NCBI GenBank assembly: GCA_913020765.1
Contig: CAJWAO010000016.1
Coordinates: 1 to 35,551, forward strand
Direction of reading: 5' to 3'
Length of the DNA stretch: 35,551 nt
From: an uncultured Flavobacteriales bacterium
Lineage (GTDB): Bacteria > Bacteroidota > Bacteroidia > Flavobacteriales_D > Crocinitomicaceae
Under the pieces are notes generated by a model, which was not told the DNA's origin, ran no database searches, and worked only from the letters and a program-made list of their open reading frames with translations. The translations under genes and the position numbers were made by a program. Below are positions 33,205-35,551 of the stretch, one piece after another (positions within the stretch are counted from its first letter, which is position 1; each line of letters opens with the position of its first letter).

Positions 33205-33223
33205 AAGTTACTACCTGTAACTT
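33205..33223. promoter_or_regulatory. Inverted repeat AAGTTAC-N5-GTAACTT before the ECF sigma gene
   Basis: A perfect 7-bp inverted repeat with a 5-base spacer, placed just downstream of a candidate -7 box and 39 bp before the sigma gene start. It may be an operator or a hairpin in the leader. The GTAAC half resembles -35 boxes used by several ECF sigma factors, so autoregulation is also possible. No T-run follows, so a terminator for the NUDIX gene is unlikely. Confidence 0.4.
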
Positions 33224-33262
33224 TTAGACTATTCAATTTGTATTAACTGTAAATGCACCAAT

Positions 33263-33751
33263 TTGAAAAAGCATGAATATAACGCGGTAATTGATGAGCT
33301 AAGTGCTCCACTTTATCGTTATGCCTTTCATTTCCTTAGAAATAAAGAAGATGCAAAGGATATTATTCAAGATGTTTTTGAAAAGTTGTGGATAAACAGA
33401 AAAATGATTGATTTGGACAGAGTAAAATCTTGGTTGTATCGATGTACTCACAATGCAATGGTGAATTTTTTATCTAAAAAATCCCGCACGCAATACATGA
33501 ATAGCCAAGAATTGCCTTTATCCTCTACCCCATTTAATTCAACTTTTGAATCGATGCAAGTAGTGGAAAGAATGGTAAATATTTTACCACCTACCCAAAA
33601 AAGCATTATTCTGTTGCGCGACATTGAGGGTTATTCTTACAAGGATATCGGACATATCCTTGATTTGTCCGCATCTCAGGTAAAAGTTTATCTCTTCCGT
33701 GCAAGAATGAAAATTAAAAAACAGTTATTAGGATTGAATAAGCTCGCATGA
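33263..33751 (+). CDS. ECF (extracytoplasmic function) RNA polymerase sigma factor
   Basis: A 162-residue sigma-70 family protein with only regions 2 and 4. Region 2 spans ~13-77 (LYRYAFHFLRNKEDAKDIIQ, VFEKLWINR, then VKSWLYRCTHNAMVNFL). Region 4 spans ~103-155 (LPPTQKSIILLRDIEGYSYK, DIGHILDLSASQVKVYLFRA), ending in the DNA-recognition helix. The start is TTG at 33263; the ATG at 33253 is out of frame and stops at once. Its stop overlaps the start of the next gene (ATGA), the usual sign of a sigma/anti-sigma pair. ECF sigmas of this type wait in complex with a membrane anti-sigma until an envelope signal releases them. Confidence 0.93.
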   Translation: MKKHEYNAVIDELSAPLYRYAFHFLRNKEDAKDIIQDVFEKLWINRKMIDLDRVKSWLYRCTHNAMVNFLSKKSRTQYMNSQELPLSSTPFNSTFESMQVVERMVNILPPTQKSIILLRDIEGYSYKDIGHILDLSASQVKVYLFRARMKIKKQLLGLNKLA

Positions 33752-35436
33752 CGTCACCAAACTTCGAAAATATCGATTTATGGCTCTTTGATTACACAGA
33801 GGGTAATTTGAGCGTATATCAAAAAGAGCTTTTAGAAAATTATATTCTGAACCACCCCGAACTTGAGATTGACCTTGACATGTGGAATATGGCTAAAGTA
33901 CCAGTCGCAGACACCATAGATCATAGCATTGAAATTAAGAAGAAAAGAGAATATCGTTTTGCCTATTACGCTACGAGTCTCATTGGTGCTGTAATTATTC
34001 TTTTGATTGGTAAAACCCATGAGCAATACAATTTAAATAATAATTTAAATAATACGCCTCAAATATCTCAAATAGAGAATACTAGTGGTGTTAATAAGAG
34101 AATTATTAATAAATCAAAATTACAGAACAAAAACCCTAAAGAAGCATCGGAAAATTCAAAAAATACGCCTTCCGAGATACAAATATCTACAGCTCGAGCA
34201 AATGCAAGTATCATGTCAACATCCGTGAACATTACCAGAAAGCAGCGAGGTTATGAATCTGTAAACCATCCCACTAAATCGTATTCTGAAATTTTACTTA
34301 CTGGGTCATCAAAAAAAGAATGGCAAGACCAAGAAGAACACGTATCTTCCTTGATCCCTTTTGCTTTGCCTTTGCAGCCGAAAGGCGTTCTCAATAATAT
34401 TAGATATTCCAATGCTGAATTAATCGAAACCGCCGACGCATCGAAAAGTAAATCATTAGGATTAAGTGGAATTCGACTAAATACGAAAACCTTATTCAAC
34501 AAAATTGATAGAGTATTATCAAAAAGCATTGCCTTCAGTAACTATCGTGACCACTTTTACATTATTCCAGGAATTGCATCAAACAATATAAACCTCAGTG
34601 CAACGGGGTCGACCTCGCAGACAAGATTCATATCCACTTCTCGCACGCGTTGGCTGGGCACGAACAAGGAAAAAATTTCGCAAGAGCTGAGTCTTGATGG
34701 TTATGCGCGTTCTATAAGATCAGGTGTTGGTGCACAAATGAGTTATGATAGTTACGCAGACGGGACGATTAAAGATTGGAATGCATCATTTATTTTCTCA
34801 CCTAAAATTGCGCTTTCTAAAAACATTTCCTTCGAACCAGCTACAAAACTGAGAATTGGTAATAAGATTTTAGATGCTGACAAAGTTGAGAACAATACTG
34901 TTTCATTGTATAACAGTAATAATCCACAGGTTTTTGATTACGATACAAGTCAGAATATAGGAAGAAAGCTGTGGTATCGAGATTTAGATGCCGGTTTTAC
35001 AATCAATACAAAAGTGCTATACATTGGATTTCAAGCCGAAAACATTTTAAACCATGTCGAAAATCTATATCAAAACCAGCAAAATTCGGAAAATTCAATA
35101 CCAACAACCTACTCCGTTCTTGCGGGTACTCAATATTTATCTCGAAACGAAAAAATAAGTTTTCATCCATACTTGTACATGCGTTCAAATGTAAATCGTA
35201 CATCCTACTACGGTGGTTTTTCACTTGACTTGGATAAACTATTTATTGGTGCCTCATTCGGTTCAAATGATGAATATTCTGGTGCTCTTGGTCTTTCGCT
35301 TGATCGTTTTGCTCTGCTTATTCAAACCACAAGGGCACACCAAGAACAATTGAATCAAAATCTCTTTACACATCAACTTACCTTGCGCGTCAATTCTCTG
35401 ATGAGCAAGAAAACTAGAAGATACATTACACTATAA
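33748..35436 (+). CDS. Putative dual-membrane anti-sigma factor with PorP/SprF-like C-terminal barrel
   Basis: A 562-residue protein with four parts. (1) Residues 1-65: an anti-sigma-like cytoplasmic domain, with IDLWLFDYTEGNLSVYQKEL and NHPELEIDL, as in many Bacteroidota anti-sigma N-termini. (2) One transmembrane helix at ~71-88, preceded by KKKREYR (positive inside), with no signal peptide. (3) Residues ~90-265: a polar Asn/Ser/Lys/Thr-rich linker of about 175 residues, long enough to cross the periplasm. (4) Residues ~266-562: a beta-strand-rich domain like PorP/SprF (SGVGAQMSYDSYADGTIKDW, then KIALSKNISFEP, IGNKILDADKV, YTVLAGTQY-like YSVLAGTQY). The start overlaps the ECF sigma stop by 4 bp. 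The next gene, a PorP/SprF, begins 3 bp later. The sigma-inhibiting role is inferred from domain order and context. Confidence 0.78.
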   Translation: MTSPNFENIDLWLFDYTEGNLSVYQKELLENYILNHPELEIDLDMWNMAKVPVADTIDHSIEIKKKREYRFAYYATSLIGAVIILLIGKTHEQYNLNNNLNNTPQISQIENTSGVNKRIINKSKLQNKNPKEASENSKNTPSEIQISTARANASIMSTSVNITRKQRGYESVNHPTKSYSEILLTGSSKKEWQDQEEHVSSLIPFALPLQPKGVLNNIRYSNAELIETADASKSKSLGLSGIRLNTKTLFNKIDRVLSKSIAFSNYRDHFYIIPGIASNNINLSATGSTSQTRFISTSRTRWLGTNKEKISQELSLDGYARSIRSGVGAQMSYDSYADGTIKDWNASFIFSPKIALSKNISFEPATKLRIGNKILDADKVENNTVSLYNSNNPQVFDYDTSQNIGRKLWYRDLDAGFTINTKVLYIGFQAENILNHVENLYQNQQNSENSIPTTYSVLAGTQYLSRNEKISFHPYLYMRSNVNRTSYYGGFSLDLDKLFIGASFGSNDEYSGALGLSLDRFALLIQTTRAHQEQLNQNLFTHQLTLRVNSLMSKKTRRYITL

Positions 35437-35439
35437 TCC

Positions 35440-35551
35440 ATGAAAAAACTCCTCACTCTACTTGTCCTAACCCTTATTACCTTTGCATCAAATGCACAAG
35501 ATCCTACGTTCACGCAGTTTTTCTCAAACCCTATCTACCTAAACCCGGCAC
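35440..35551 (+). CDS. PorP/SprF family T9SS membrane protein (3' end outside window)
   Basis: The first 37 codons are visible: a signal peptide (MKKLLTLLVLTLITFASNA) followed by QDPTFTQFFSNPIYLNPA, the hallmark N-terminus of mature PorP/SprF outer-membrane proteins. These assist type IX secretion, and SprF-type members help export specific large adhesins. It starts 3 bp after the anti-sigma-like gene, so it is co-transcribed with the ECF sigma pair. The rest of the gene lies beyond the window. Confidence 0.88.
   Translation, partial: MKKLLTLLVLTLITFASNAQDPTFTQFFSNPIYLNPA

Follow-up and report, generated by a model that had tools for sequence, protein, structure and literature searches.

Can a carrier barrel of the type IX secretion system (T9SS) be joined to a sigma factor by one polypeptide, so that the state of the cell surface reaches gene expression? 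The question is raised by a three-gene cassette on contig CAJWAO010000016.1 (GenBank assembly GCA_913020765.1) of an uncultured Flavobacteriales bacterium assigned to the Crocinitomicaceae. The window, i.e., the whole stretch of DNA analysed, comprises 35,551 nt, and the cassette occupies its last 2.3 kb, up to the contig end. A gene for an extracytoplasmic function (ECF) sigma factor overlaps by 4 nt with the gene for a fusion protein, which combines a predicted anti-sigma N-terminus with a PorP/SprF-like barrel domain. A porP gene follows after a gap of 3 nt and is cut at 35551 by the contig end, with 112 nt (37 codons) inside the window. We consider it probable that the three genes constitute one self-regulating surface-signalling unit, leading from a PorP/SprF barrel to an ECF sigma factor and an envelope regulon. 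The parts of the cassette are as follows.

33216..33251, + strand: promoter-like element TGTAACTTTTAGACTATTCAATTTGTATTAACTGTA, with ECF-type spacing, about 12 nt 5' of the sigma start codon.
33263..33751, + strand: ECF sigma factor, 162 aa, TTG start (Pfam Sigma70_r2 and r4_2; NF058625).
33748..35436, + strand: predicted trans-envelope anti-sigma/PorP-SprF fusion, 562 aa (67 distinct full-length homologues).
33748..33945, + strand: predicted anti-sigma N-terminal domain, residues 1-66, motif ENIDrWlFdy.EGNLS (conservation, weak profile match).
33961..34017, + strand: single inner-membrane helix, about residues 72-90, with KKKREYR just before it (hydropathy, positive-inside charge).
34018..34539, + strand: periplasmic linker, about residues 91-264, polar, rich in N, S and K, with poor conservation (66 homologues).
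34540..35433, + strand: PorP/SprF-like barrel domain, residues 265-562, lacking both cysteines and an SCPSF tail (PF11751, hhalign).
35440..35551, + strand: 5' end of a stand-alone porP gene, encoding a signal peptide and QDPTFTQFFSNPIYLNPA (TIGR03519, E 1e-8 on 37 aa).

The PorP/SprF identity of the fusion's C-terminus, already proposed in a sequence-only reading of this DNA, was confirmed by profile searches. The protein matched Pfam PF11751 (PorP_SprF) over residues 284-547 with 72.2 bits (gathering score 22.3; E 6.6e-20), and TIGR03519 with E 5e-24 and 85.3 bits, below the curated cut-off of 90.55. In a profile-profile comparison (hhalign) of the fusions with the partner PorPs, that is, those encoded by the third gene, residues 265-562 spanned the whole mature PorP (99.6%, E 1.3e-23). 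A barrel of the PorP/SprF class was found in all 67 fusions, each carrying a cytoplasmic/transmembrane module instead of a signal peptide, and the fused barrels formed one clade (support 0.996). Their nearest relatives were the partner PorPs and those of the type encoded beside gldJ, with a median of 101 bits against the fused-barrel profile, compared to 42 bits for the best other complete PorP. No cysteine was conserved across the 67 fusions, the window's protein being cysteine-free, and no homologue of the fusion with a solved structure was found by sequence. By homology, the fused barrel would be inserted in the outer membrane.

Within the N-terminal half of the fusion, residues 1-66 formed the best conserved block in the alignment of fusions. 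They matched other Bacteroidota anti-sigma factors weakly in hhalign (probability 56%, E 1e-4). The hydrophobic helix began at residue 63-84 in the 67 distinct full-length fusions, and positive charge was greater before than after it in 60 of them. The linker measured 135-250 residues (median 178) in 66 homologues, was rich in N, S and K, and had no conserved columns in the fusion alignment. The homologues, far more consistently than chance would allow, agree on the layout that the sequence-only reading had described, namely an anti-sigma-like N-terminus, one helix, a polar linker and a PorP/SprF C-terminus; its coordinates for all three genes, with overlap and gap, also stood.

The co-encoded ECF sigma factor, likewise part of that reading, matched Pfam regions 2 and 4 (E 1e-13 and 1e-15), and an ECF sigma gene adjoined the fusion gene in every one of 68 distinct cassettes. 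The sigma factor scored 136 bits against NCBIfam NF058625 (the GFO_1088/PG0214 ECF sigma family; cut-off 130), typical members of which reach 160-240 bits and are followed by an anti-sigma gene of about 140-280 aa, not by a fusion. This family was considered as a functional lead and dropped, since its loci have a different, short anti-sigma factor. The sigma start codon was TTG in 64 of the 68 cassettes, including the window's at 33263, and is perhaps a brake on translation.

The 68 cassettes, counted as sigma/fusion pairs, had the same gene order and came from one order and one further family. Most genomes of the window's family had the full-length fusion. It was also found in part of the genomes of three further families from the same order (f39, f41 and f43), and in one additional family of the class (f54). 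A phylum-wide sample of 296 genomes yielded no fusion match besides the window itself, and the viral contigs searched yielded no usable homologues. The order sigma, fusion, PorP was uniform in 20 neighbourhoods of 15-20 kb and in 15 shorter ones from other families, with PorP cut or missing where the downstream sequence ended early. The sigma and fusion genes overlapped by 4 nt in 57 of the 68 cassettes and by 1 nt in 9, and the distance from fusion to PorP was at most 17 nt in most of them.

This arrangement recalls the Dma-type anti-sigma proteins of gut Bacteroides, which were reportedly studied by Pardue et al. in 2024. Shared with Dma are an N-terminal anti-sigma domain (here predicted), one inner-membrane helix, a long tether (disordered in Dma), a C-terminal barrel (here by PorP/SprF homology), an adjacent ECF sigma factor and a three-gene operon. 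The sigma factors of Dma belong to the ECF21 group. The cassette differs in that its barrel is a PorP/SprF type IX carrier and its third gene a PorP. The likeness to Dma, which the sequence-only reading had also pointed out, holds up as one of layout (PMC13088901). The text of the Dma2 paper makes no mention of PorP or T9SS (PMC13088901). By analogy, the cassette protein presumably acts in the manner of Dma, as an anti-sigma factor that spans the envelope, with a carrier barrel as the presumed sensor and an envelope regulon as the presumed output.

It could be argued instead that the fused barrel is an inner-membrane-anchored PorP/SprF carrier, serving as a structural tether or belonging as a subunit to the complex of the partner PorP, and that the N-terminus does not regulate the sigma factor. 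The weak N-terminal profile match would suit this explanation, as would the fact that direct sigma binding is a prediction. Nevertheless, all but 2 of 68 cassettes show an overlap of 1 or 4 nt between the sigma and fusion genes, conservation in the N-terminal half of the protein is highest in the N-terminal block, and the layout matches that of Dma1 and Dma2, whose loss frees the cognate sigma factor (PMC13088901). We regard a purely structural role as very improbable.

The firmest link to type IX secretion is provided by the third gene. Complete homologues of the partner PorP, a stand-alone barrel with its own signal peptide, were 318-333 aa long and ended in ..RxISCPSF; three cysteines and the SCPSF end were invariant in 13 aligned sequences, with the tail variant in places in the most distant family. 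Nearly every genome searched, cassette-negative ones included, had one further PorP of the same type, encoded directly upstream of gldJ and divergent from porU and porV in the loci examined (hidden Markov model identities were obtained for one locus). In 7 of 16 two-copy genomes (L142-L171), the cassette and gldJ-linked copies were clearly closer to each other than to any orthologue, with up to 99.7% protein and 95% DNA identity, a pattern that fits gene conversion. Judged by these comparisons, the third gene of the cassette duplicates one from the gliding/T9SS core locus. The link to type IX secretion, claimed in the sequence-only reading, is thereby strengthened, and PorP/SprF barrels also occur among the genes behind the promoter element described below. 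Of its description of the third gene as a true PorP, the assignment stood, through the TIGR03519 match of 37 codons, and completeness was seen in relatives, not in the window. Its suggestion that this PorP is a regulated output gained indirect support from the short distance to the fusion gene and the shared promoter.

Only the first 112 nt of the PorP gene are present before the window's contig stops, and the contigs of several relatives end there too, which might suggest a fusion reading frame created by misassembly or a frameshift. The break would be accounted for by the near-identical second porP copy, and 67 distinct uninterrupted full-length fusions from many assemblies rule an artefact out for practical purposes.

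PorP/SprF proteins are outer-membrane carriers of type B cargo (PMC9143113, PMC12618676). The cysteines in the C-terminal tail of Flavobacterium johnsoniae SprF form a disulfide to GldK, attaching the carrier to the moving track, and are dispensable for cargo export (PMC12635249). The fusion shares with these carriers a whole PorP/SprF domain, above the PF11751 gathering score, but is joined to a cytoplasmic/inner-membrane module and lacks the SCPSF tail and all three cysteines of the partner PorP. Because the CxC tail that binds SprF to GldK on the gliding track is missing from the fused barrel, the sensor barrel would be a carrier freed from that track. Related tails were seen elsewhere: two small exported proteins encoded behind the promoter element (L233:306-728 and L234:340-825) end in GCPSF, like the partner PorP, and CPLF terminates the type-B-linked PorPs in L129 and L137. 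These proteins may share a C-terminal signal of the form CPxF.

Which genes might respond to the sigma factor was approached through its promoter. The element 5' of the sigma gene was nearly invariant, TGTAACTTTt-N12-TTGTtTTA, with ECF-type features; TGTAACTTTt-N12-TTGTtTTAactg preceded the sigma gene in 63 of 65 cassettes as a TGTAAC element with 11-12 nt spacing, and it may also be written TGTAACTTT-N13-TTGTNTTA. Across 120 genomes of the family, the exact pattern had 86 matches, compared to 6 for a control, and 46 of them were cassette promoters. Non-cassette exact sites numbered 36 in 75 cassette-positive genomes vs 4 in 45 negative ones (p = 1e-4). Among the 41 such sites examined, which came from two genome searches, none lay inside an open reading frame (ORF), and 39 had a same-strand ORF start within 250 nt downstream. 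A signal-like peptide stood at the start of 35 of these 39 first ORFs, vs 34% of neighbouring ORFs. Targets recurred: many genomes had tandem lipoproteins some 125-130 aa long behind the element, and PorP/SprF barrels (L195, L224, L225 and L237), other outer-membrane barrels and large outer-membrane receptors were also seen there repeatedly.

Tandem lipoproteins of 120-130 aa lay behind the element in L176, L186, L187, L191, L208, L209, L214, L216, L230, L236, L239 and L242; no Pfam family was found for them in the two tested. One-mismatch copies of the element preceded an exported barrel-like gene in L195 (PorP/SprF by Pfam), L200 and L193. In the latter two, the next gene encodes an exported Kelch-repeat protein, and the two products may form a carrier/cargo pair.

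Taken as one signalling unit, the cassette would operate as follows. The cytoplasmic N-terminus of the fusion would hold the ECF sigma factor, and the protein would cross the inner membrane once, pass through the periplasm as a flexible linker and end in an outer-membrane barrel of the PorP/SprF carrier type. A change in the state of the barrel, whether by binding of type B cargo, binding of the co-encoded PorP, docking to the translocon or failed assembly, would release the sigma factor. Acting at TGTAACTTTt-N12-TTGTtTTA, free sigma would then switch on its own operon, extra PorP included, as well as genes for outer-membrane barrels, for small lipoproteins and for further exported proteins. 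Sequence cannot separate direct transmission from regulated proteolysis. Cargo occupancy or damage as the signal, and its passage with no regulated protease chain, both put forward in the sequence-only reading, thus stay hypothetical.

Several observations weigh against this model. The anti-sigma role of the N-terminus is suggested by its position and a weak profile match, and reading of the TGTAACTTTt promoter by the cassette sigma factor by position and co-occurrence only. Outside the cassette, the window's own genome contains no exact site, and a one-mismatch site at one barrel gene (L243). Exact sites also occur in two cassette-negative genomes of the same genus, and no promoter element was found at the T9SS core genes gldJ, porU and porV in the loci examined. 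AlphaFold, run with three-sequence input on the whole fusion and on the barrel, gave a predicted local distance difference test (pLDDT) score of 28 both times. Finally, genes for type B cargo are universal, in cassette-positive and cassette-negative genomes alike.

The predicted regulon, made up of outer-membrane proteins and lipoproteins rather than T9SS core genes, leads to another possible account, in which the machinery for outer-membrane assembly holds the barrel as a captive client. Failed insertion or envelope stress would lead to cleavage of the linker, an intramembrane protease would free the N-terminus, and the sigma factor would raise outer-membrane proteins; the PorP homology would then be that of a typical client barrel. 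Besides the regulon, it draws support from the barrel, which is much less conserved than the partner PorP, and from the long exposed linker, a natural protease substrate. Nevertheless, every one of the 67 fusions has a barrel specifically of the PorP/SprF class, with the gldJ-type PorP as closest relative, and the same type of PorP is co-encoded wherever downstream sequence exists, which a generic client would not need. On balance, we think an assembly sensor rather unlikely.

The binding of type B cargo by PorP/SprF proteins (PMC9143113, PMC12618676) makes T9SS cargo sensing attractive, but this kind of sensing is not singled out, since such cargo occurs with and without the cassette. The presence of type B cargo was also considered as a correlate of the cassette and set aside as uninformative, cargo being universal. 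We tentatively suggest, as a possibility well short of an even chance, that a type IX carrier without a track anchor is held captive in the fused barrel. From the outer membrane it would signal directly to the sigma factor the engagement of type B cargo or of the paired gldJ-type PorP, and in this way tune the supply of carriers and surface proteins.

Two loci showed a related arrangement. In L217:536-2436 (G003) and L229:523-2533 (G042), a different ECF sigma gene is followed by one for an anti-sigma-like protein. That protein contains a single helix, PKD domains and a type B sorting domain of the T9SS, for which PF13585 gave E 8e-15 and 5e-9, respectively, and TIGR04131 exceeded its cut-off in L217 only. 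Both loci have the cassette's promoter element. Full-length anti-sigma proteins with a type B domain occurred in about 16 of 100 genomes and were not found in the window's own genome. Such a protein is in effect an anti-sigma factor ending in the cargo signal that PorP/SprF barrels bind. If the fused barrel were a captive carrier, some of the genomes that have it would also possess its mirror image in this protein, which would use the ligand side of the same lock-and-key pair. Furthermore, L127:5893-8636 (G022), from a genome of the same genus without the fusion, encodes a related sigma factor, a 354-aa anti-sigma factor without a barrel and a separate 376-aa exported protein, which may be a barrel; this is possibly a split version of the cassette. 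Its promoter resembles TGTAACTTTT-N12-CGTCTTA.

As one signalling unit, the cassette can also be set against two better-known routes. FecR/FecA-type cell-surface signalling likewise has an ECF sigma factor, an inner-membrane anti-sigma factor and an outer-membrane barrel in one pathway, whereas here barrel and anti-sigma are one polypeptide and the barrel is not a TonB-dependent receptor. PorXY-SigP of Porphyromonas gingivalis shares an ECF sigma factor, type IX-related genes and surface state, but SigP is activated by a two-component system and targets T9SS core genes, with no anti-sigma/barrel fusion (PMC7712824). The link from the surface protein PorA to PorXY-SigP is unexplained in that species (PMC7712824). 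No description of a PorP-fused anti-sigma factor was found in the literature searched, which did not include the 2024 Dma paper or the ECF classification papers.

In the cassette, carrier barrel and sigma factor appear to be connected through a single polypeptide. Now that a promoter is defined and candidate target genes are listed, the question of how the state of the type IX/gliding surface reaches gene expression becomes directly testable. The finding would extend the idea of the trans-envelope anti-sigma factor from gut Bacteroides to T9SS-bearing Flavobacteriales, and would show that the barrel half of such proteins is swappable.
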